15,612 nt of DNA from an uncultured Tabrizicola sp. (GTDB lineage Bacteria; Pseudomonadota; Alphaproteobacteria; Rhodobacterales; Rhodobacteraceae). A program made the position numbers and the translations under genes. Shown piece by piece: positions 1,893-13,104 of this stretch. How positions within the stretch are numbered: the first letter of the stretch is position 1; every line of letters starts with the position of its first letter. The notes under the pieces are model-generated. The model saw only the letters and a program-made list of their open reading frames with translations. It did not search any database and was not told the DNA's origin. The DNA lies in assembly GCA_937858255.1 (NCBI GenBank), contig CALLZQ010000357.1, positions 1-15,612 on the forward strand, given 5' to 3'.

Positions 1893-2569
1893 CCTGCCAG
1901 TTTACCCATGACCCGGCACTGATCGCCCGCTTTCCCGCCCTGCGGGTACAGAGTCTGATTGCCACCCTGCCAGAGGGCTTTGCCCCGCCTGACCCCGCCC
2001 CGCTGGAAGAAGAAGCCCGCGCCCGGCTGGTGCAGGCGCCCGAAGCCGAGATGGCGCCGATCCGCGCCTGGCGGGCGGCCTATGCGGCCATGGGACACAA
2101 GCCGACACAGACACGCTGCGCCGCCGAGGCGCTGTTGCGCCGGTTGCGGCTGGAGGGCGCCCTGCCCCGCGTCTCGGGCCTTGTCGATTTCGGTAATGCC
2201 GTTTCCGCCGCCGCCGCCATTCCGCTGGCGATCTTTGATCTGGATCGGGTCTCTGGCGATCTGACAGTGACCATGGCGCGGGGGGATGAGCGATTTGTCA
2301 CCTTTGGCGGCGCCGAAGAGCGGCCTGATCCCGGCGAGGTGATCTTTCGCGACAGTTCTGGCGCGGCCCATGCCCGCCGCTGGGCGCATCGGCAGGGGGC
2401 GGCGGCGGCGACAGGGCCTGCGACACGCCGGGCGCTGTTCGTCGCCGAGGCGATGCATGACGGGGCCGAGGCCGATCTGACGCCGATGACCGCACGTCTA
2501 ACCGCCCTGCTGCGTCAGGCGGGGGCCGAGGTTCAGCCCGGCAACCGCTGGCCCGCGCAGGCGGGCTAG
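1889..2569 (+). CDS. B3/B4 tRNA-binding domain protein
   Basis: A 226-residue soluble protein resembling the B3/B4 domain of the phenylalanyl-tRNA synthetase beta subunit, which in that enzyme carries the site that edits mischarged tRNA. Recognisable segments are RAWRAAYAAMG-KPTQTRCAAEALLRR (about residues 57-86), LPRVSGLVDFGNAVS, a GDLTVTMARGDERF-like strand, PGEVIFRD, RRWAHRQG, and a late ALFVAEAMHDG segment. Stand-alone members of this family are poorly characterised. The start at 1889 is set by the ATGA overlap with the transporter stop; the open frame upstream lies antisense-like inside the transporter and is not coding. Coupling to an exporter suggests a shared role in handling an amino acid or analogue, but that is inference. 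It converges on the HxlR gene eight bases away. Confidence 0.85.
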   Translation: MTCQFTHDPALIARFPALRVQSLIATLPEGFAPPDPAPLEEEARARLVQAPEAEMAPIRAWRAAYAAMGHKPTQTRCAAEALLRRLRLEGALPRVSGLVDFGNAVSAAAAIPLAIFDLDRVSGDLTVTMARGDERFVTFGGAEERPDPGEVIFRDSSGAAHARRWAHRQGAAAATGPATRRALFVAEAMHDGAEADLTPMTARLTALLRQAGAEVQPGNRWPAQAG

Positions 2570-2584
2570 GCCGCTGCCTAGCCC
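2563..2584. terminator. Bidirectional hairpin between convergent genes
   Basis: Perfect inverted repeat GGGCTAGG, six-base loop CCGCTG, then CCTAGCCC. It contains the TAG stop of the B3/B4 gene (2567-2569) in one arm and the TAG stop of the HxlR gene (minus strand, 2580-2578) in the other. No T-tract follows on either strand, so an intrinsic terminator is plausible but not canonical. Confidence 0.55.
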
Positions 2585-2964
2585 TGCGGCAGCCCCTCTG
2601 GTCCCGTTCCCGGGGCCATTCCCGGCGAAGGCGCCGCCTTGAGCCTCAGCCCGCCCGCCACGATCTGCTCGATCACCGGCAGAAACTCGCGCCCCAGATC
2701 GGAAAGACTGTATTCGACACTGGGGGGCGAGGTCGGCATCACCCGGCGCAAGACCACGCCGCGCTCTTCAAGATCGCGCAGGCGCTGGGTCAGCACCTTG
2801 GCCGACACCAGCGGAATATCCACCCGCAACTCGGAAAATCGCCTGGGTCCCGAGGCCAGATACCACAGGATATTCGGCGTCCATGCCCCGCTCAGATAGG
2901 CCATGCAATCAGAGAGCGGGCAGGCCGGCGCGGGGCTGCGATTCTTGCGCATTTTCAAAGGCAT
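2578..2964 (-). CDS. HxlR-family winged-helix regulator
   Basis: A 128-residue protein with the HxlR/MarR-like winged helix over about residues 15-110. The family signature is clear: CPLSDCMAYLSGAWTPNILWYL with Cys15 and Cys20, then RRFSELR, a recognition helix LVSAKVLTQRLRDLEERGVV, and the wing PPSVEYSLSDLGREF. Family members commonly sense reactive electrophiles, aldehydes or quinones, often through the N-terminal cysteine. The ATG at 2964 is preceded by GGAG about eleven bases upstream; an in-frame Met four codons later is an alternative. It diverges from a GST operon 138 bases away and is its likely regulator. The C-terminal tail after residue 110 is Pro/Gly-rich and probably disordered. 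Confidence 0.9.
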   Translation of the reverse strand: MPLKMRKNRSPAPACPLSDCMAYLSGAWTPNILWYLASGPRRFSELRVDIPLVSAKVLTQRLRDLEERGVVLRRVMPTSPPSVEYSLSDLGREFLPVIEQIVAGGLRLKAAPSPGMAPGTGPEGLPQG

Positions 2965-2998
2965 GGGGAAATCCGCTCCGGCAGGTCAGGCAAATCGG

Positions 2999-3041
2999 GT
3001 TACCGCGGGATATCTGAAACGCACAGTTACCACAAGATACC
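2999..3041. promoter_or_regulatory. Candidate HxlR operator: two GTTACC-type direct repeats
   Basis: In the HxlR-gst intergenic region, GTTACCGCGGGATATC (2999-3014) and GTTACCACAAGATACC (3026-3041) match at 12 of 16 positions and are spaced 27 bases apart. A further TTACC follows at 3045-3049. The surroundings are locally AT-richer than the neighbouring genes. Repeats this close to two divergent starts fit operator sites for the HxlR protein, but binding is inferred. Confidence 0.4.
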
Positions 3042-3102
3042 AGATTACCAAAGGTTTCCACTTCGGCTATCCCGGGGCTGTTCTTTCGCAACGGAGATCG
3101 CG

Positions 3103-3714
3103 ATGAAACTCTACTACAAACCCGGCGCCTGCTCGATGGCCTCGCATATCGTCCTGACGGAAATCGGCGCCCCCTTTGAGACCGAGGCGGTCGATACCGA
3201 GGCCAAGCGCACCGCCAGCGGCGCCGATTTTCTGGCGCTGAACCCCAAGGGCAAGGTGCCTGTGCTGCAACTGGGCGATGAGACACTGACCGAGGGGCCG
3301 GCGATCCTGCAATTTCTGGCCGACAGCGCCGGGCGCGCGGATCTGATACCCCGCCCCGGCACGCTGGAGCGGGCGCGCGTGGCCGAGGTGCTGAACTATA
3401 CCGGCACCGAATTGCACATTGCCTTTGGGCCGCTGTTCAACCCGGCAGCGGATGACACCATGCGCGAGGCCGCCCGCCGCGCGGTCGCGGCCAAACTGGC
3501 CTGGCTTGAGGCGCGGCTTGCCGATGGGCGGGGCTATCTGACCGGCAGTGCCTTTACCGTGGCCGATGCCTATGCCTTTGTTGTCGCCAACTGGGCGAAT
3601 TTTACCGGTATCGAGCTTTCTGCCTGGCCGCATCTGGCCGGTTTCATGCGGCGCGTCGCGGCCCGCCCGGCGGTACAGCGGGTCTTGCGGGCCGAGGGTC
3701 TGGTGGCCGCATGA
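3103..3714 (+). CDS. gst: Glutathione S-transferase, beta class
   Basis: A 203-residue cytosolic enzyme that conjugates or adds glutathione to electrophiles. The start MKLYYKPGACSMASHIVL matches the bacterial beta class, with the characteristic Cys10. LNPKGKVPVL (cis-Pro loop) and LTEGPAILQFLAD (glutathione site Glu64-Gly65) complete the thioredoxin-like domain, about residues 1-80. The all-helical domain follows, with ELH (His105, equivalent to the conserved His of E. coli GST), FTVADAYAFVVANWA (N-capping motif) and FMRRVAARPAVQ. Length agrees with E. coli GstA (about 200). GGAG lies six bases before the ATG. First gene of a coupled four-gene series, its stop overlapping the next start by four bases. 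Probably under control of the divergent HxlR gene. Confidence 0.93.
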   Translation: MKLYYKPGACSMASHIVLTEIGAPFETEAVDTEAKRTASGADFLALNPKGKVPVLQLGDETLTEGPAILQFLADSAGRADLIPRPGTLERARVAEVLNYTGTELHIAFGPLFNPAADDTMREAARRAVAAKLAWLEARLADGRGYLTGSAFTVADAYAFVVANWANFTGIELSAWPHLAGFMRRVAARPAVQRVLRAEGLVAA

Positions 3715-4094
3715 CCGACCGCGACAATCTTGCCGCGCTGGTCACTTGTATCGAGACCTATCTCGACGGTCTCTATGACTCGGACATAGCGCGCCTTGCA
3801 CAGGTTTTTCACCCGCAGGCCCATTACGTCACCGCTTCGGGCGCGTCGCTGTTGATGCTGGACATGCCCGCCTATTTCGCGGTTGTCGAAAAACGCCCCT
3901 CGCCGCGCAGCCGCGGCGAGACACGGCAGGATCAGATCGTCTCGGTCGATTTCGCCGGCCCCGTCACGGCCCGCGCGCATGTGCGCTGCCGGTTTCTGGG
4001 CCGGCAATTCGACGATTTCCTGACCTTTATCCGCACCGAGGCGGGCTGGCAGATCATCTCCAAGGTCTTTCACTATGTCGAGGAGGCGGGCTGA
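3711..4094 (+). CDS. NTF2/SnoaL-fold protein (lumazine-binding-2-like)
   Basis: A 127-residue protein resembling the 'putative lumazine-binding' subgroup of NTF2-like proteins. Diagnostic segments are the N-terminal helix and DGLYDSDIARLAQVFHP, LLMLDMPAYFAVVEKRPSP, then the beta-sheet core ending FLTFIRTEAGWQIISKVFHYV. Members are single-domain cone-shaped proteins that bind small ligands or act as simple isomerases or hydrolases; the true substrate of this subgroup is unsettled. It starts inside the GST stop (ATGA at 3711-3714) and its TGA overlaps the next ATG by one base, so it is probably co-translated with both neighbours. No signal peptide is visible. No catalytic assignment is made. 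Confidence 0.82.
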   Translation: MTDRDNLAALVTCIETYLDGLYDSDIARLAQVFHPQAHYVTASGASLLMLDMPAYFAVVEKRPSPRSRGETRQDQIVSVDFAGPVTARAHVRCRFLGRQFDDFLTFIRTEAGWQIISKVFHYVEEAG

Positions 4095-4315
4095 TGCCCT
4101 ATGTGAACATCAAGATCACCCGCGAAGGAGCAAGTCCCGTGCAAAAGGCCGCCCTGATCGCCCGCGTCACCGAATTGCTGGTGTAGGTTCTGAACAAATC
4201 GCCCGCCACGACCTTTGTGGTGATCGACGAGGTCGCGTTTGAGGATTGGGGGATCGGCGGGCTGCCGGTGACAGAATACCGCGCCCGATTGGCCGCAGAT
4301 CCGGGCCGGTTGTGA
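4094..4315 (+). pseudogene. 4-oxalocrotonate-tautomerase-like gene with in-frame amber stop
   Basis: Reads as a 73-residue tautomerase-family protein except for TAG at codon 31 (4184-4186). Before the stop: MPYVNIKITREG with the catalytic Pro that becomes residue 1 after Met removal, then VQKAALIARVTELLV. After the stop the same frame continues VLNKSPATTFVVIDEV, then WGIGGLPVTEYR, which is the conserved C-terminal half of the family. The usual residue there would allow Gln, so a single C-to-T change (CAG to TAG) explains the break. No other stop or frameshift is present, so the mutation is recent, a sequencing error, or the codon is suppressed. A 30-residue peptide would be inactive. Start and stop overlap both neighbours by one base (TGATG), as in an intact operon. 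Confidence 0.85.
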
Positions 4316-4767
4316 TGAGCGGCGAATATCTGCGCCTCTGCGCGGTGATGTTCGCCGCCGGGCTGGGCATTCCGGTGATGGCCGCGCTGAACGGCGGGCT
4401 GGGACGCCATCTTGGGGCGCCGCTCTGGGCCGGGGTGATCCTGTTGGGCATCGGTTTCGCGGTCGCGCTGACGGCGGCGCTGCTGTTGCCGGTGCCCGCC
4501 GGCCCTGCCCCCGCCGGACCCGGCCCGCCCCCAGCCCCTCTCTGGGCCGGCGGGCTGTTCGTGGCCTTCTACATCCTGTCCGTCACCCTGATCGGCCCCC
4601 GGCTTGGCATCGGCACTGCCATCGTGCTGGTCCTGCTGGGGCAGATGGTCTCGGCGGCGCTGATCGACCATTTCGCGCTGTTATCGATGCCGGCACGCCG
4701 GCTGGATACCGAGAGGGCGGTCGGGCTGGCGCTGATGGCGCTTGGCACCTGGCTGTTTTCCGGCTGA
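4315..4767 (+). CDS. Small DMT transporter, YdcZ (DUF606) type
   Basis: A 150-residue membrane protein with about five hydrophobic segments, half the length of a normal EamA transporter, as expected for the YdcZ/DUF606 branch, which may dimerise. The N-terminal AAGLGIPVMAALNGGLG is typical, followed by a Pro/Ala-rich loop (about residues 60-78) and IGPRLGIGTAIVLVLLGQM, then LIDHFALL and a last helix ALMALGTWLFSG. The start at 4315 is chosen because TGATG couples it to the tautomerase gene; an open frame upstream to 4246 lies inside that gene. Last gene of the HxlR-linked series, suggesting export of the metabolite processed by the preceding enzymes. Substrate unknown. Confidence 0.85.
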   Translation: MSGEYLRLCAVMFAAGLGIPVMAALNGGLGRHLGAPLWAGVILLGIGFAVALTAALLLPVPAGPAPAGPGPPPAPLWAGGLFVAFYILSVTLIGPRLGIGTAIVLVLLGQMVSAALIDHFALLSMPARRLDTERAVGLALMALGTWLFSG

Positions 4768-4805
4768 ACAGCCCCAGTCAGCCGCTGCCCCGGTGGTGGC
4801 GGCTG
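4762..4805 (+). terminator. Candidate terminator, two alternative hairpins
   Basis: Downstream of the YdcZ-type gene, CAGCCGC (4779-4785) pairs perfectly with GCGGCTG (4799-4805) across a 13-base loop. An alternative hairpin pairs GGCTGA (4762-4767, including the stop codon) with TCAGCC (4778-4783). The two share bases and exclude each other. Only a weak T-rich stretch follows. Confidence 0.45.
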
Positions 4806-4832
4806 TCATCAAATCTTCACTGGCAGCCACGG

Positions 4833-4856
4833 ATAATTCCTTTATTCTGGAATTAT
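4833..4856. promoter_or_regulatory. ArsR operator overlapping promoter and start codon
   Basis: Perfect inverted repeat: ATAATTCC (4833-4840), spacer TTTATTCT (4841-4848), GGAATTAT (4849-4856). The right arm includes the first two bases of the arsRC ATG at 4855. The spacer holds a good -10 (TATTCT, 4843-4848); a weak -35 may be TGGCAG (4821-4826, 16-base spacing). A -10 here would place transcription start at about 4855, the start codon itself. Autoregulation by the ArsR domain is the natural reading. Confidence 0.7.
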
Positions 4857-5691
4857 GGAACATTCACAAGCCAGCCAGATTTTCACCACCCTCGGCCATC
4901 CCGACCGGCTGATGGTATTTCGCCTGCTGATGCGCTTTGCGCCGCAGGGTGTGCGCCCGACCGAGATCGCCGAGGCCCTGGGCTTCAAGGCCAACACCCT
5001 GTCGCATCACCTGTCAGAACTGACGGCCACCGGGTTGGTGACGGTCCGGCGTCAGGGGCGTTCGCTCTATTACGCCGTGCAGCTTGAAACGACCGAGGCG
5101 CTGATCGCCTATCTGGCGCAGGATGTCGCCCGTGGCCGGCCCGATCTGCTGGGCGGCCTTGCCGGTGCCGGCCCACTGCCCACGCCCCCCCGGCCCTGGC
5201 AGGTGCTGTTCCTCTGCTCGGGCAATCGTGCACGCTCGCTGATGGCCGAGGCGCTGTTGCGCGATCTGGGCGGCGGGCGGTTCATCGCCCATTCGGCGGG
5301 CCTTCACCCCGGCGAGGCGCCACATCCGACGACCCTGTCGATCCTGGGCCGGAATGGCCATGACACCCGGGACCTGCGCTCAAAGAGTATCACAGAGTTT
5401 CAGCGGCCTGACGCGCCCCAGATGGATTTTGTCTTTGCCGTCTGCGACCGTGCCGCGACCGAGGAATGCGCGCCCTGGCCCGGGTTGCCACTGACCGCGC
5501 ATTGGGGTCTGCCCGACCCGGTGGCCGCAACCGGGACGGCGGCCGAACAGGCGCTGGTCTTTGCCCGGACCTATGGCGCGCTGCGCCGGCGCATCGCCGC
5601 CTTTGCCGAACTACCCCTTGCCAGTCTCGACCGGCTGGCGCTGCAATCGCGCCTTGATGCCCTGGGCGAGGCGCCCCCGGAACAGGAGTGA
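4855..5691 (+). CDS. arsRC: ArsR-ArsC fusion: arsenic regulator plus arsenate reductase
   Basis: A 278-residue fusion. Residues about 5-100 are an ArsR winged helix ([52 protein letters not shown]). Residues about 115-255 are a low-molecular-weight-phosphatase-type arsenate reductase: P-loop CSGNRARS (Cys121 to Arg127), [11 protein letters not shown], then [15 protein letters not shown] with Cys197 and Cys205, and HWGLPDPVA. The three cysteines suit the thioredoxin-linked relay of this class, which reduces arsenate to arsenite. Fused ArsR-ArsC proteins are known. Oddity: the ArsR half has no cysteine at all, so it cannot bind arsenite through a classical Cys site in that domain. No Shine-Dalgarno precedes the ATG; the start is fixed by the domain beginning almost at once. 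It is followed by the GAPDH gene after four bases. Confidence 0.92.
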
Positions 5692-5695
5692 ACCC

Positions 5696-6703
5696 ATGCC
5701 CCGTATCGCCCTTAACGGCCTTGGCCGGATTGGAAAGCTGGTGCTGCGCAACCTGATCGACAGCGGCGCGGGCGGCGAGATCGTCTTGCTGAACGACCCT
5801 GCCGGCGATGCCGAACAACATGCGTTGCTGATGGAGTTTGACTCGGTGCATGGCCGCTGGGGCACCCCCGTCGCCGCCGCCGAAGGCGCGCTGCTGCTGG
5901 ACGGCCGGCCCATTCGCCTGACCCATGAAAAAACCCTGCAAGACCTGCCACTGGCTGCCCTTGGTGTCGATCTGGTGATCGACTGCACCGGGGTTTTCAA
6001 GACCGGCGCCAAGCTGGCCCCCTATTACGCCGCAGGGGTTAAGAAAGTGGTGGTCAGCGCGCCGGTCAAGGAGCCCTCGGCACTCAATCTGGTCTATGGG
6101 GTGAACCACGGGCTCTATGATGGCTCGCAAAGCCTGATCACGGCGGCCTCCTGCACCACCAATTGCCTGGCACCGGTGGTCAAGGTCATTCATGAGGCGC
6201 TGGAAATCCGTCATGGCGCGATCACCACGATTCATGACGTGACCAACACCCAGACCATCGTCGATCGCCCGGCCAAGGACATGCGCCGCGCGCGGTCAGC
6301 CCTGATGAACCTGATCCCCACCACCACCGGCAGCGCCAGTGCCATCACCCTGATCTACCCCGAACTCAAGGGGCGGCTGAATGGCCATGCGGTCCGGGTG
6401 CCGCTGCTGAACGCTTCGCTGACCGATTGCGCATTCGAGGTCGCGCGCCCGACCAGCGCCGAGGCGGTGAACGCCCTCTTCAAGGCCGCCGCCGAAGGCC
6501 CCCTTCGCGGCATTCTGGGCTATGAGCCGCGCCCGCTGGTGTCTTGTGACTTTACCAATGACCCGCGGTCGGCGGTGATCGACGGCCCCTCGACCATGGT
6601 GATCGACGGAACACAGGTCAAGATTTACGCCTGGTATGACAATGAATGGGGCTATGCCTGCCGGCTGGCCGATATCGTCCGAATGGTGGCGCACAGCCTT
6701 TGA
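5696..6703 (+). CDS. gap: Glyceraldehyde-3-phosphate dehydrogenase, ArsJ-associated
   Basis: A 335-residue type I GAPDH. The Rossmann motif is [14 protein letters not shown] at the start, with NDPAG (Asp35) suggesting NAD use. The catalytic motif [10 protein letters not shown] gives Cys153, with His180 in [10 protein letters not shown] as the base; the C-terminal [13 protein letters not shown] is standard. AGGAG lies seven bases before the ATG at 5696; the open frame upstream to 5561 is inside arsRC. In ars operons this enzyme uses arsenate in place of phosphate on glyceraldehyde-3-phosphate, giving 1-arseno-3-phosphoglycerate, which ArsJ exports (established for such operons). That specialised role here is inferred from position between arsRC and arsJ; a glycolytic role cannot be excluded from sequence alone. 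Confidence 0.93.
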
Positions 6704-6839
6704 CCGCTTCATCTGGTGATAAGTTTCCTTCAGGAGTCCGGGGGGGCAGGCCTTTCCGGCCAGCGGCACTCTGGCCTGCGCCCTTCCAGCTTGCGCCCCG
6801 CCCCCCCTCCCGTTCGGGTCTTAGCCACGGGCGTCCCCG
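6704..6839 (+). other. Long gap-arsJ spacer with alternative hairpins
   Basis: A 136-base spacer inside an otherwise tight operon. GCAGGCC (6746-6752) can pair with GGCCTGC (6773-6779), and the inner GGCCAG (6758-6763) with CTGGCC (6771-6776, seven-base loop); the two pairings compete for 6773-6776. An SD-like CAGGAG at 6731-6736 has no suitable start near it. It could serve as a processing site, a stabilising stem or an attenuator. Confidence 0.35.
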
Positions 6840-8102
6840 ATGACCCTTGCCCCACCGAACCCTCCCTCCCCCCTGCGGGCCTATGCCGCCGTTACGGCGG
6901 CCTATTGGGCCTTCATGCTGACCGATGGCGCCCTGCGCATGCTGGTGCTGCTGCATTTCAACGCCTTGGGCTTTTCGCCGGTCTCGCTCGCCTGGTTGTT
7001 TCTGCTTTATGAGGTCGCGGGCATTCTGACCAATCTGGCCGCGGGCTGGCTGGCAGCGCGCTTTGGCCTTGCCGCCACGCTTTATGCCGGGCTGGCATTG
7101 CAGATCGTGGCATTGGCGGCGCTGTCGCGGCTGGATCCGGGCTGGCCCCTGACCGGCTCGGTGGCCTTTGTGATGGCGGTACAGGGCCTGTCGGGCGTGG
7201 CCAAGGATCTGGCCAAGATGTCGTCGAAATCGGCGGTGAAACTGCTGGCCCCGGCGCAGGACGGCGGGCTGTTCCGCTGGGTTGCGGCGCTGACCGGGTC
7301 AAAGAACGCGGTCAAGGGCCTTGGGTTTTTCCTTGGCGCGGCGCTCTTGGGCCTTGCCGGGTTTCAGACCGCGCTCTGGGTGATGGCGGCGGTGCTGGCG
7401 ATAATTCTGTTGCTGGTCGTGCTGTTTCTGCCCGCCGGCCTGCCCGGGCGGATGAAATCCGCTGAAAGCTGGTCGGGCTGGCGCTCGGGCGATGTCCGGG
7501 TGAACCGGCTGTCGCTGGCGCGAATGTTCCTGTTCGGTGCCCGCGATGTCTGGTTCGTCGTCGGCATTCCGGTGTATTTTCAGGCAGTTCTTTCGGATGG
7601 CACAGCCGAGGGGCGGCGCGAGGCGTTCTTTCTGGTCGGCGGGTTCATGGCGCTCTGGATCATTGCCTATGGCGCGGTTCAGGCGCTTGCGCCCCGGATA
7701 TTGGGGCACAAGAGCCAGCCCGAGGGGGAGACCGTCGCCAAGGCGATCCGCTGGGCCGGCGCGCTGGTGCCGCTGCCCTTTGCGCTGGCGCTGGTCGCGT
7801 GGCTGGCAGGTGGAACGGCGCCTTGGCTGACCGTCCTGCTGGTGGGGGGGCTGCTTTTGTTCGGCCTGATCTTTGCTGTCAATTCCTCGGTGCATTCCTA
7901 TCTGATCCTTGCCTTTGGCGCCGCCGAGCGGATCAGCCGGGATGTCGGCTTTTACTACATGGCCAATGCGGCGGGGCGGGTGATTTGCACGCCCCTTTTC
8001 CGTCTCCGCTATCAGATCGGTGGCCTGCCGCCCCGTCTTGCCACCGCCGGCGCGGTGGCCCTTGCAAGCTGGCTGGCCATGCGGCGGCTGCAACCGGTGT
8101 AG
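6840..8102 (+). CDS. arsJ: ArsJ-type MFS organoarsenical exporter
   Basis: A 420-residue inner-membrane protein with about 11-12 hydrophobic segments. Recognised as ArsJ by YWAFMLTDGALRMLVLLHF near the start, LFLLYEVAGILTNLAAGWL, the long GVAKDLAKMSSKSAVKLL, then LTGSKNAVKGLGFFLG. The partner position directly after gap fits: ArsJ expels 1-arseno-3-phosphoglycerate, which then breaks down outside, completing arsenate detoxification. The ATG at 6840 is the only start after an in-frame TAG at 6822 and before the conserved region, yet no good Shine-Dalgarno precedes it; how it is initiated is unclear. No arsenite pump (ArsB or Acr3) is present in the window. Confidence 0.9.
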   Translation: MTLAPPNPPSPLRAYAAVTAAYWAFMLTDGALRMLVLLHFNALGFSPVSLAWLFLLYEVAGILTNLAAGWLAARFGLAATLYAGLALQIVALAALSRLDPGWPLTGSVAFVMAVQGLSGVAKDLAKMSSKSAVKLLAPAQDGGLFRWVAALTGSKNAVKGLGFFLGAALLGLAGFQTALWVMAAVLAIILLLVVLFLPAGLPGRMKSAESWSGWRSGDVRVNRLSLARMFLFGARDVWFVVGIPVYFQAVLSDGTAEGRREAFFLVGGFMALWIIAYGAVQALAPRILGHKSQPEGETVAKAIRWAGALVPLPFALALVAWLAGGTAPWLTVLLVGGLLLFGLIFAVNSSVHSYLILAFGAAERISRDVGFYYMANAAGRVICTPLFRLRYQIGGLPPRLATAGAVALASWLAMRRLQPV

Positions 8103-8229
8103 TGGCGCCAGACTTGCCGCTATGTCCAGGCTGGGTGTCGCCAGCGGGGGGCGCCGCGGGGTCGGGTCCAGACAGAGAAGGCGAAGACGGCGCTGAAATC
8201 CGGTCTGGGTTGCGACGAAAATCCTGAAC

Positions 8230-8259
8230 TTGACATATCGGTTTTCTCGCCCTGCTATA
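8230..8259 (+). promoter_or_regulatory. Sigma-70-like promoter for the large secreted protein
   Basis: A perfect -35 TTGACA (8230-8235) and a -10 region GCTATA at 8254-8259 (18-base spacing) or TATAGG at 8256-8261 (20-base spacing). The expected start near 8266 gives a leader of about 95 bases to the ATG at 8361. No earlier gene lies in this 258-base spacer after arsJ, and I see no clear terminator in it. Confidence 0.6.
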
Positions 8260-8272
8260 GGGCTTCACGTCC

Positions 8273-8285
8273 CCGTGATACACGG
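8273..8285. promoter_or_regulatory. Palindrome CCGTG-ATA-CACGG just after the promoter
   Basis: A perfect inverted repeat with five-base arms and a three-base centre, immediately downstream of the predicted transcription start. It could be an operator or a short stem at the 5' end of the transcript. The role is inference. Confidence 0.3.
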
Positions 8286-8360
8286 ATCGCGCGCATCATC
8301 GGGAAGCTGCCGCCTCTGCGCCACCCTGCCTTGGTCAAGGCGCTTGCCAAAGGAAATGCC

Positions 8361-11300
8361 ATGAGCAGCCTGCCCCGGCCCCGTCTGACCTTGCCTTTCC
8401 GCGCGCAGCGCCGCCATGGCGTGACGGGGGGACGCCGCACCTTGCTTGGCCTCCTGTTGGTCGCCGCCTTGGCGCCGCTGTCAGGGGGGCCGGCCCGGGC
8501 ACAGGCGGTCAACCCGCTCTGCCAATCGGCGCCGCAAGGGGGAACAACGCTGCGTCTGATCAATGGCTGGTCGCGCGAGGCAAAGGTTAATCTGGCGGAT
8601 GGGAGCGCCCTCTTGCTGCCAGCCGGGGCGCAAAAGGATGTCTCGCTGACGCAGGCCGCCATCATTTCCTGGTCGCAGAAGATGGATAACGGTGTCTACC
8701 GTCTTGGCGAGGCGCCCGTCCAACTGAGCGCCGGGGTGCAGGGCTATTGCTATGTGCTGGGGGACAAACCCCTGTCTCGCCGGTTGCCCCCGGATGGCGC
8801 CTCGGCCGGCGGGGGGCGTCTGGCGCCACCGGTCATGCCCCTGCCCGATGACCCGCGTTGTCAGACCCTCCCGGCCGCGGAGGTCAGCGGGAAACGCATC
8901 TTCCGCCTGATCAATGACAGCGCCTGGAATGTCCATCTGCGAAGCCTGTCGCAAGGCACCGTGCTGGTGCCGGCGCATGGGCACAAGGATATTCTGGCGC
9001 CGCCGCAGGATGGGCTGCGCTGGTCCTTCGTGGGATGGCCGAATGAAATCGCGCGGCGGATAGACGATGAGGCGCGCTGTGTGATCATCGACGGCGCGCA
9101 GGGTGTGGTGGCGCCGGGCGAGACACCGCTGCCGCCGCCCGGCCCGCGCGACCCGGGACCGCCCCCCGATCCTGACGCCGGCAAGCAGGATTGTACCGAA
9201 GCCGCCTTTCGCCAGGCGGTCGCCGCTGGTGAGGCCAGCGGCACGGTGACGCTGAAAGGCAGTTGCCGCTATCGCCTGATGACCAAAGACCAAGGGGGGG
9301 CCGGCGCCACGCTGACGCGCACGCAACGGATCGAGGGCAACGGCGCCATCGTCCTGCGCGAGCCCTCGGCGCCCGCCTTCGGTCTGCTGGACCTGTCGGG
9401 TGCGGTTGCGATTGACCGGCTGACCCTGCGCGGCGGACAGTCTGACGGATGGGGCGGGGCAATCCTCTCCCGGGGGGATCTGGTGCTGACCTCGGTCACG
9501 CTAGAGGATAACCATGCCGATGGTCAGGGGGGCGCGGTCGCCTGTAGCGGCTGCGCAGTCACGCTGCGCGGCGTCGAGGCCAGGGGCAACAGCGCGGGCG
9601 GCTATGGCGGGGCGGTCTATGCCGATCGCGGCGCCGAGATCCGCGAAAGCCGCTTTATCGCCAACCGCTCGGCCAGCCTTGGCGGCGGGATCCTTTCCGC
9701 CCCCTTGCGGATCGAGAACAGCCTGTTTGCCCAGAACCGCGCCGAAGGCGGCGACGGGGCGGCGATCTATCTGGGTGGCAAGGGGGGGCCAGACAGCCGC
9801 ATCATCAGCACGACAATCACCGACAATGATGGAAATGCCGCCAGCGCCATTGCGGCATGGAGCCCGCTGCGCCTGCGCAACACCCTGATTGCCAACCATG
9901 AAACCGGCATTGTGGCCGGTGTTCCCGGTGTGGATGAGGATTACACCCTGTTTGCCGGCATCAGCTTTCAGACGGCGGGTCAGCCGGTGACATCGGGCGG
10001 ACACAGCCTGTCGGTCGTAGAGCCGCGCTTTGAGGATCCGGCGCGGCTGAATTACCGGCCCAGCCGGTATTCTCCGGCTGTGGACCGGGGCTTTGCCGCC
10101 GAGGCGCCGGCGACTGACATGGACGGACGGCCCCGCCCCTATGTGATGGCCGGAATCCGGGGGCTGACCCCGCTGGCCGACATTGGCGCCTATGAGACCG
10201 AGGCACTGCCGCGCCCGTCACTGATCATCACCAAGATCGCGCCACGCTGGGTGCAGAAGGATGTGGCCACGCTCTACCGGCTTCGCGTCGAGAATGCGGG
10301 GCGCGCGCCGGCCGAGGCCCTCGCCATCGTTGAGATCCTGCCTCCCGGCGCAACCTTTGTCAGTGCAAGCGACGGCGCCAGATACGATGCCGCCACCAGA
10401 ACCTTGACCTGGGAGGCCGGGTCACTGGACCCCGGCAAGAGCCGCGTCGTCAGTTACATGGCCGGCGCCAGTCACAAGCTGGTGTCACGCGATTATTGGG
10501 TGGCAAGCCGCAACGATCCCGAGGCGGGTCATCTGGGCGCCGAGACCGTCACCGAGGTCGACAGCGACATGACGCACACCTTGGGCTTTTTCCCAGATCC
10601 GGACGGATTTGCCTTTGCCAATTACAACGACAGCCCGCCCAGCGATCTGACGGATGACGACCTCTATCAGATCTTCTCGTCCAGCGCCTGCAAATCCGCG
10701 CGCCGCCCCTGCGTCCTGCGCGCCGTGGTACAAGAGTGGCGCCGTACCTGGCTCAAGAACGTGGAAATCGGGCATTGTGTCGGCTTTTCGGTCGCGAGCC
10801 TTGAGATCTTCCACGATCCGCTCAAGGCCGCCCATGAGCTTGACCCGCGCGCCGATATGACCTTTGCCCTTGCCAAACCAGAGGCGCGGCGCGCCATCGC
10901 GCGCTATGCCACCACACAGGGCACAGTGCCGCTGAACGGCAGCCCATATCCGAAATGGGGGGAGGAATCGCTCGACCCGTCGCAGGTGCTGAGCCGCCTG
11001 CGGGAAAATTTCGCCGACCCCAAGGCGAAGGACCGCTATATCATGAACTTCAGCAAGCCTGACGGGACCGCCGGTCATGCGGTTGTGCCCTATGCGATCA
11101 AGGAAATCGCGGGCTCGGGCGAGGTGCAGGTCTACATCTATGATAACAACAATCCGAATGATTTCACCCGCACGGTGATCGTTGATCCCGTAGCAAACAC
11201 CTGGCGCTATGTCGGGCAGACCAGTCCCGATGCGGTTGTCGAGGGCTATTCGGGCGATGCGGCGACAAAAACCCTTCGTCTAACCAGTCTTGGCTGGGCC

Positions 11301-12638
11301 ACTTCTTTCCCGCGATGCCTTGACCCTGATTGCACCGATTTCCCGAAACCGGTGAAAACCAGAGGGCTGGTCGGCTCTGCCGGCGGCACGGATAGCGAAG
11401 AGGCCGGGGAATTTGAGCCCTATGCCGCGCCTGAGCGGCTGACCATCGCGCTGAATGGCGAGGGGTCAATGCTGATCACCCGCCGTCACGACGGCGCCCG
11501 GTTCGGCCTGGACCCCAACACCGGCACCTGGCTGACCGAGATCGAGGGCGCCCGGCAGGCATCGCGCAATTTCGGCCCGGTGCGCCGCGTCGGGCCTGCA
11601 TTTGACCTGCCGCATCTGCCCGGCGCGGTTTACACAGCCCTGGTCCATGGCCTGCCCCCTGCCGGTGGCGGGGCAAGGCCCGCCTCCCTCTCGGTAGACT
11701 GGCCGGGCTTTGCGCTGTTGCTTGACGACCTGGCGCTGACCGATCCGGCGACCCCGGCCCCGGTCGATCCCATGGGCGAGAGCGGGCCGGCGCTGTCACT
11801 GATCATCGCGCCCGACCGCATGGACGCCTTGCTGAGCGCCGGGCCGGACTGGGACCAGCAACCGCGCCTGCATCTGGCCATCTCGCAGCCGCCCGCACCC
11901 GAGGGTGCCGTTGCGGCAGAGATCCCCCCTGACTATATGTTTGCCATCGGGCCGTTTCCCCTGACTGCGGGCGGGCGGATTGCCTTTGGCTACACGCCGT
12001 CACAATCGCTGTTCGGGCTGGAATCTGAGGCACCGCTGCCCAGTGGCATCCCGGTCGATATCAGCCGCCTTCATGAGGATGGCCGGGTCGATCACTATGC
12101 CGCGAAGCGCGACGCCCCTGTCTTCAAACCCTCCAGCATGGTGATGCGTGTCGGCAGTGTCTGGTCAGGGTCAGAGGCCCCCCCCGATCAGCCGCCGGTG
12201 GACAGCCCCCTGACCATTGCTGCCGTGGATGGCGGCAGCATTCTGACCCGCATGGATACAGGCAAGCTGACCTTTGCACCGGCAGGAAAAGAGGGCGTCG
12301 CCCCGGCCGTTTTCCGCCTTTATGACGAGATGCAGACCAACTGGGATTCACAGCGCTATCTGATCAGCCTGAAGGGCGAGGCGCCGGATGGTGATCTGCT
12401 CTTCCTGTCGGTGGCGCCAGAGGGGCTGCGCCTGATCGGCCGCGGCGAACTGGGTCCGGGCAGCCGTTTCGATCTGGTCAGCGGCCTCTCGGGCGAGGGG
12501 TACAGCCTTGCCGCCTTCGACTTCCCCGGAATGTTCCTGATCAAGCAGGGAGAGGCACTGGTGCCTGCAACCGATGATGGCACCGAGGCCTTCCGCCGGG
12601 CGGCCAGCTTTACCTTGCGGCCTCTGCCCGACGAATAA
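8361..12638 (+). CDS. Large secreted multidomain protein with cysteine-peptidase-like domain
   Basis: A 1425-residue predicted secreted protein that I do not recognise as a characterised family. Order: Sec signal peptide (RR-TLLGLLLVAALAPLSGGPARAQA, cleavage near residues 47-49); two related modules, each bracketed by a cysteine pair (Cys54/Cys130 and Cys167/Cys240) with shared RLIN and P-A-x-x-x-KD motifs; a Pro-rich linker (about 250-275); a right-handed beta-helix (about 277-613) ending SPAVDRG...DMDGRPRP...DIGAYE, the choice-of-anchor-Q style; a DUF11-like beta-domain (about 618-735); a domain with GHCVGFS (Cys806), GHAVVPY (His906) and YDNNNPND (Asp928), like a papain-fold peptidase triad; a long beta-rich region; and a three-repeat beta-trefoil-like end (about 1284-1425) whose last repeat resembles AbfB. 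Start at 8361 has AAAGGAA six bases upstream; a TTG at 8331 is less likely. Activity is inferred only. Confidence 0.85.
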   Translation: MSSLPRPRLTLPFRAQRRHGVTGGRRTLLGLLLVAALAPLSGGPARAQAVNPLCQSAPQGGTTLRLINGWSREAKVNLADGSALLLPAGAQKDVSLTQAAIISWSQKMDNGVYRLGEAPVQLSAGVQGYCYVLGDKPLSRRLPPDGASAGGGRLAPPVMPLPDDPRCQTLPAAEVSGKRIFRLINDSAWNVHLRSLSQGTVLVPAHGHKDILAPPQDGLRWSFVGWPNEIARRIDDEARCVIIDGAQGVVAPGETPLPPPGPRDPGPPPDPDAGKQDCTEAAFRQAVAAGEASGTVTLKGSCRYRLMTKDQGGAGATLTRTQRIEGNGAIVLREPSAPAFGLLDLSGAVAIDRLTLRGGQSDGWGGAILSRGDLVLTSVTLEDNHADGQGGAVACSGCAVTLRGVEARGNSAGGYGGAVYADRGAEIRESRFIANRSASLGGGILSAPLRIENSLFAQNRAEGGDGAAIYLGGKGGPDSRIISTTITDNDGNAASAIAAWSPLRLRNTLIANHETGIVAGVPGVDEDYTLFAGISFQTAGQPVTSGGHSLSVVEPRFEDPARLNYRPSRYSPAVDRGFAAEAPATDMDGRPRPYVMAGIRGLTPLADIGAYETEALPRPSLIITKIAPRWVQKDVATLYRLRVENAGRAPAEALAIVEILPPGATFVSASDGARYDAATRTLTWEAGSLDPGKSRVVSYMAGASHKLVSRDYWVASRNDPEAGHLGAETVTEVDSDMTHTLGFFPDPDGFAFANYNDSPPSDLTDDDLYQIFSSSACKSARRPCVLRAVVQEWRRTWLKNVEIGHCVGFSVASLEIFHDPLKAAHELDPRADMTFALAKPEARRAIARYATTQGTVPLNGSPYPKWGEESLDPSQVLSRLRENFADPKAKDRYIMNFSKPDGTAGHAVVPYAIKEIAGSGEVQVYIYDNNNPNDFTRTVIVDPVANTWRYVGQTSPDAVVEGYSGDAATKTLRLTSLGWATSFPRCLDPDCTDFPKPVKTRGLVGSAGGTDSEEAGEFEPYAAPERLTIALNGEGSMLITRRHDGARFGLDPNTGTWLTEIEGARQASRNFGPVRRVGPAFDLPHLPGAVYTALVHGLPPAGGGARPASLSVDWPGFALLLDDLALTDPATPAPVDPMGESGPALSLIIAPDRMDALLSAGPDWDQQPRLHLAISQPPAPEGAVAAEIPPDYMFAIGPFPLTAGGRIAFGYTPSQSLFGLESEAPLPSGIPVDISRLHEDGRVDHYAAKRDAPVFKPSSMVMRVGSVWSGSEAPPDQPPVDSPLTIAAVDGGSILTRMDTGKLTFAPAGKEGVAPAVFRLYDEMQTNWDSQRYLISLKGEAPDGDLLFLSVAPEGLRLIGRGELGPGSRFDLVSGLSGEGYSLAAFDFPGMFLIKQGEALVPATDDGTEAFRRAASFTLRPLPDE

Positions 12639-13014: not shown

Positions 13015-13104
13015 TGGCGGACAGTGAGGGATTCGAACCCTCGAGACGGTTCCCCGCCTACACACTTTCCAGGCGTGCGCCTTCGACCACTCGGCCAACT
13101 GTCC
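13015..13104 (-). tRNA. tRNA-Ser (anticodon GGA)
   Basis: A full serine tRNA. The acceptor stem is GGACAGT (13104-13098) pairing with ACTGTCC, followed by discriminator G and an encoded CCA (13017-13015). The D-arm is GGCCGAGTGGTCGAAGGC-like, the anticodon loop CTGGAAA with GGA at 13070-13068, a long serine-type variable arm follows, and the T-arm is GAGGGTTCGAATCCCTC. It reads UCC and UCU codons. Encoded CCA is not universal in bacteria, so it is worth noting. Confidence 0.96.

Follow-up and report, generated by a model that had tools for sequence, protein, structure and literature searches.

We describe a single long open frame (8361-12638, + strand, ATG start) in a 15,612-nucleotide stretch of DNA from an uncultured Tabrizicola sp. 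(contig CALLZQ010000357.1), hereafter the window. We read its 1425-residue (aa) product as a probable secreted enzyme of papain-like thiol hydrolase type, with peptidase or amidase activity the likeliest. This reading draws on the computed domain order, on a conserved Cys-His-Asp set, on the papain-like topology of a structural model and on an export-type N-terminus judged by eye; the catalytic roles of individual residues are those we infer. The papain-like domain is shared by many surface proteins of bacteria, an archaeal bin and phages; this widespread family has no name in the family libraries searched.

The motifs GHCVGFS, GHAVVPY and YDNNNPND, which the first-pass annotation had singled out for Cys806, His906 and Asp928, all lie in the protein, and the codons of the three residues were confirmed. 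We aligned 161 rows, from 122 proteins, 26 genome loci, 12 viral loci and the window protein, some of them duplicates. Of these rows, 160 have Cys806, 161 His906, 159 Asp928 and 161 Gln853; Asn754 stands in 160, and the remaining row has a gap there. Six further domain-bearing open reading frames (ORFs) that adjoin family genes all keep Cys, His, Asp and Asn754, and four of them keep Gln853. The totals over 167 domains are therefore 166 for Cys, 167 for His, 165 for Asp, 165 for Gln853 and 166 for Asn754; the homologues keep the proposed catalytic residues, and in the order seen in clan CA. Judged by this conservation among aligned sequences, the predicted triad is far beyond chance. The sole row lacking Cys, the Chloroflexi gene L018:1898-6118, has Ser (codon AGT), and both rows lacking Asp carry Asn and represent the same domain twice (L016, P0003). 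Gln853 is not called invariant because two paralogues at L018 lack it. The spacing from His to Asp is 21 residues in 92 of 94 rows and 22 in the window protein. In papain and C39 peptidases the oxyanion Gln usually lies six residues before the Cys, and it is absent from some papain-like families. Here that position is occupied mostly by Ala, Ser or Gly across 94 rows, and by Asn in the window protein; we do not treat the Gln as defining. A conserved pair, Cys777 and Cys784, is replaced by Val in one further L012 paralogue and may form a disulfide.

A model of the domain alone has papain topology in its secondary structure. The Cys stands at the N-terminus of the central helix and the His and Asp/Asn on or after the strands that follow, as in clan CA, so that in the model Cys806, His906 and Asp928 occupy the canonical places of the papain fold. 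VIA-align ranks papain-like cysteine peptidases as the nearest structural neighbours of the model, with peptidases in most of its rows. The papain-fold, cysteine-peptidase-like part proposed at first pass is supported by the model, and it may underlie the peptidase or effector activity also suggested there. Foldseek, however, returned no significant match for the domain model. Nothing in the viral fold library matched at E under 0.001, and a fold search with a 697-residue model was uninformative, its lists being filled by beta domains and the low-confidence C-terminus. From its modeled topology and triad the domain is read as papain-like, short of formal membership of the clan.

In the mechanism we propose, Cys806, at the N-terminus of the central helix, would act as the nucleophile and His906 as the base, with Asp928 orienting His906, and the enzyme would cleave peptide or amide bonds of extracellular proteins. 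The beta-helix, ending in choice-of-anchor Q, may serve as a stalk or bind surfaces, and carbohydrate binding by the AbfB-like C-terminal part may direct the enzyme to its substrate. The same triad could serve a papain-fold transferase or amide ligase, in which the acyl-enzyme is passed to an amine in the manner of transglutaminase or phytochelatin synthase; cross-linking of surface proteins would be one example. We consider this unlikely, since staphopains score higher in the structural comparison, where peptidases make up most rows, and no transferase-type family was matched by the rows scanned.

The remaining chain consists of binding-type modules, and the L018 protein of similar architecture has Ser in place of Cys; both observations would suit an adhesion or binding protein with a dead or vestigial papain fold. 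However, the window protein has the triad intact, hardly any family member from the various phyla or phage contigs departs from it, and both paralogues adjoining the Ser form keep Cys, making a nonenzymatic role quite improbable. More improbable still is an antagonistic effector, released or delivered by the beta-helix part to act on other cells. The protein is a large secreted mosaic, and papain-like toxin domains are described in PMC3482391 as common in polymorphic toxins. Yet the papain-like domain here is internal rather than C-terminal, most relatives seen are shorter secreted or lipoprotein-like proteins, and there is no convincing immunity-type gene: in the roughly 377 bp between the gene and the downstream tRNA gene, ORFs of at least 80 aa overlap one or the other. 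A secreted papain-like hydrolase is the reading we carry forward.

Searching residues 720-1010 among proteins of similar whole length returned only the query, a scan of viral contigs with the single window domain found none, and the phage record collection held no match to it; among plasmids, two Rhodococcus hypothetical proteins matched (NZ_CP133330.1 and NZ_CP092103.1, 26.9% and 26.5% identity). With the domain alone as query, two stand-alone proteins of 292 and 297 aa were recovered at about 33% identity, and their alignment led to 27 loci in the GTDB genome collection. By their record titles, 15 of these are from Chloroflexota, 8 from Actinomycetota and the other four from Candidatus Marithrix, a verrucomicrobium, a Tanganyikabacteria bin and a Methanothrix bin (one each). 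The locus L028 is a fragment and was excluded from later counts. A 15-row alignment of domain plus tail then yielded at least 499 proteins; scoring was confined to the 7996 candidates with the most shared words, and to a limited range of lengths. Most relatives seen are of 500-800 aa and secreted or lipoprotein-like, and the source names among the 120 proteins listed are "hypothetical" or "uncharacterized" protein.

Family libraries say little about this domain. No model matched aa 735-1290 in full-length Pfam and NCBIfam scans, and a 290-aa piece around the domain had no Pfam match at E up to 10. The 15 family rows gave no PDB sequence match in a profile search and family matches that were not consistent: no listed model of Pfam, NCBIfam or PHROGs was matched by more than one row (best E 3.5e-4, 0.022 and 0.017, respectively). 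One protein, P0078, bears a precomputed PF26997.1 that our local Pfam scan did not reproduce. PADLOC gave no match at E up to 0.01 for four proteins, and no description of the family was found in the literature at the level of titles and abstract openings. We regard it as an evenly balanced proposition that these proteins form a new extracellular papain-fold enzyme family. Such a family would be marked by an N-terminal motif of its own, DGFxFxNY, would have a mostly-beta partner on its C-terminal side and would build its oxyanion hole without Gln at Cys-6 (near-invariant Asn754 and Gln853 being candidates). It would be present in Chloroflexota, Actinomycetota, Verrucomicrobiota, Pseudomonadota and an archaeal bin, its members frequently standing as tandem paralogues whose stalks have been swapped, and a lipoprotein form, carried by phage-like contigs next to head and packaging genes, might remodel the host surface. 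A papain-like function would give hundreds of hypothetical proteins an enzymatic role open to testing, together with a catalytic triad, and would make the phage-encoded lipoprotein a candidate for modifying surfaces.

Family members commonly have tandem or nearby paralogues, as seen at 5 of 27 genome loci (L018, L012, L021, L022 and L024). At L018, in a Chloroflexi bin, three family genes stand in a row (1898-11278), of which the first, of beta-helix type, has Ser for Cys. The second (6426-9056) opens with a beta-propeller-like part, by eye, and the third (9311-11278) is shorter; both keep Cys and have Ala at the Gln853 position. Further family genes lie at L012 7983-10682, L021 4040-5893, L022 3916-5826 and L024 3653-4567 (- strand), and the verrucomicrobial L012 proteins carry immunoglobulin-like domains N-terminal of the papain-like domain. 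Unrelated neighbors conserved across phyla were not found in the 27 loci (BLASTP, ORFs of at least 100 aa), only neighbors shared within Chloroflexi or close relatives. Twelve IMG/VR contigs carry the domain, in proteins of up to 1180 aa, and 11 of the 12 predicted N-termini end in a lipobox-like Cys-Ser-Gly. Among four with neighbors examined, a terminase large subunit gene lies upstream in three, and a portal and a head morphogenesis gene lie upstream in one; this is an unusual place for a secreted enzyme-like lipoprotein. On L061, L063, L065 and L068, lipoprotein-like proteins of 1144-1180 aa with the Cys-His-Asp domain are encoded by ORFs at about 4800-8360, near terminase large subunit or portal genes.

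The window protein has an unusual architecture for a papain-like domain (Table 1), and the modules proposed at first pass were largely recovered. Its two N-terminal repeats are similar, at 27% across 59 aa with E 2e-5 for one BLASTP comparison. The beta-helix with a choice-of-anchor-Q-like end is supported by Chlam_PMP (Pfam), POMP_repeat (NCBIfam) and the choice-of-anchor Q model above their cut-offs, with Beta_helix remaining below (20.7 versus 25.9 bits). The DUF11-like part was matched by its Pfam model, and the trefoil by AbfB (PF05270), whose fold is a beta-trefoil, at 24.2 versus 22.8 bits over only positions 37-90 of 137. In most aligned family members, a tail of the aa 986-1290 type follows the peptidase-like domain. 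No autotransporter family was among the Pfam and NCBIfam matches at E up to 1 that might indicate a type Va barrel, and the C-terminus is the AbfB match. A Shine-Dalgarno-like (SD-like) AAAGGAA lies just 5' of the ATG, and the N-terminus, by eye, reads like an export signal, in keeping with the signal peptide first proposed. The gene's own promoter, also proposed, was not reproduced: a consensus scan found no + strand site before the gene, and a perfect TTGACA at 8230-8235 lacks, by eye, a well-spaced -10 hexamer.

Table 1. Features of the gene and its product in the window
Feature	Position	Strand	Basis
Whole gene, 1425-aa secreted multidomain protein	8361..12638	+	ORF, SD-like AAAGGAA
Putative signal peptide, aa 1-47	8361..8501	+	sequence judged by eye
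N-terminal repeat A, aa 49-143	8505..8789	+	BLASTP A vs B
N-terminal repeat B, aa 164-253	8850..9119	+	BLASTP A vs B
Beta-helix, aa 376-517; POMP/Chlam_PMP repeat at aa 378-399	9486..9911	+	Pfam, NCBIfam
Choice-of-anchor Q domain, aa 568-613	10062..10199	+	NF041518, 27.8 vs cut-off 25 bits
DUF11 domain, aa 636-704	10266..10472	+	PF01345, E 3.8e-10
Papain-like domain, aa 735-985	10563..11315	+	family alignments, domain model, structural neighbors
Cys777 and Cys784, conserved pair	10689..10712	+	each 93/94 rows
Cys806, predicted nucleophile	10776..10778	+	166/167 aligned domains
Gln853	10917..10919	+	165/167; Ala in two L018 paralogues
His906, predicted general base	11076..11078	+	167/167 aligned domains
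Asp928, predicted third triad residue	11142..11144	+	165/167, Asn in 2
Mostly-beta C-terminal part, aa 986-1290	11316..12230	+	family alignments, strands in model
C-terminal region; AbfB match aa 1368-1420 (12462-12620)	12243..12635	+	Pfam; low-confidence model there

The gene does sit beside a tRNA gene, as first noted: tRNA-Ser(GGA) lies at 13015-13104 on the other strand, about 377 bp downstream. The proposal that it is cargo acquired there stands in part. The gene was probably acquired horizontally, because it is absent from relatives: in overlapping samples of 61 relatives (full-protein query), 385 members of the class, 345 of the family and 378 of the phylum, the papain-like family was found only in the window's own genome. 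Candidatus Marithrix shows that other Pseudomonadota can carry the family, and in the tree its protein pairs with the window protein (SH-aLRT 94); with long branches on both sides, the pairing may be spurious. The upstream major facilitator superfamily (MFS) gene is present in all 16 genus genomes, the window's own included (partial in G010), and the downstream stretch of tRNA-Ser, helix-turn-helix (HTH) and AlaX genes was matched in all 16, with only a weak tRNA-like match in G010; five of the 15 congeners have <90% completeness or >5% contamination. On the gene's side of the tRNA, five congeners offer 10-12.6 kb of sequence, and none of the window's left-hand proteins, the 1425-aa protein included, occurs there; for a sixth, G004, only 0.6 kb is available. 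These data fit acquisition or rearrangement at the tRNA. No att-like repeat of the tRNA end was among the repeats listed, and no integrase was among the ten neighbor proteins scanned. Contig contamination was rejected because the flanks match most congeners and the gene's GC content at third codon positions (0.77) fits its neighbors (0.76-0.85). Elsewhere in the window (4855-8102), an ArsR-phosphatase fusion, GAPDH and MFS genes stand in a row (Pfam HTH_20+LMWPc and MFS_1), resembling an organoarsenical gapdh-arsJ efflux operon; congener G009 has the ArsR-phosphatase, GAPDH and MFS trio at a different location.

It is useful to contrast the family with known papain-like proteins. The staphopains (MEROPS C47; 1pxv, 1cv8, 1y4h, 8oig) have no sequence match to it (0 matches in a profile search of PDB sequences), and the window family differs from them in its extra N-terminal DGFxFxNY, its near-invariant Gln853 and its lack of Gln at Cys-6. 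IdeS, Mac-1 and IdeC (MEROPS C66; 1y08, 2avw, 9hb1) show 5-7% identity and have different fused modules. Unlike the C39 peptidases (PF03412; PCAT1, ComA), the window domain is not fused to an ABC transporter; neither it nor the 15 family rows had a Pfam C39 (PF03412) or C39_2 (PF13529) match, hhalign of the family against 25 C39 rows gave an insignificant probability of 0.4%, and the C39_2 comparison, made only with a poorly framed alignment, was insignificant. The closest architecture is that of L018:1898-6118 (bin_187). Unlike the window protein, it has a CSLREA N-terminus, two blocks that by eye resemble a beta-helix, Ser where the Cys would be, and no DUF11 or AbfB match. Like the window protein, it has PMP-type repeats and choice-of-anchor Q, here in two stretches of which the second immediately precedes the papain-like domain and tail. 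This order therefore occurs in two phyla.
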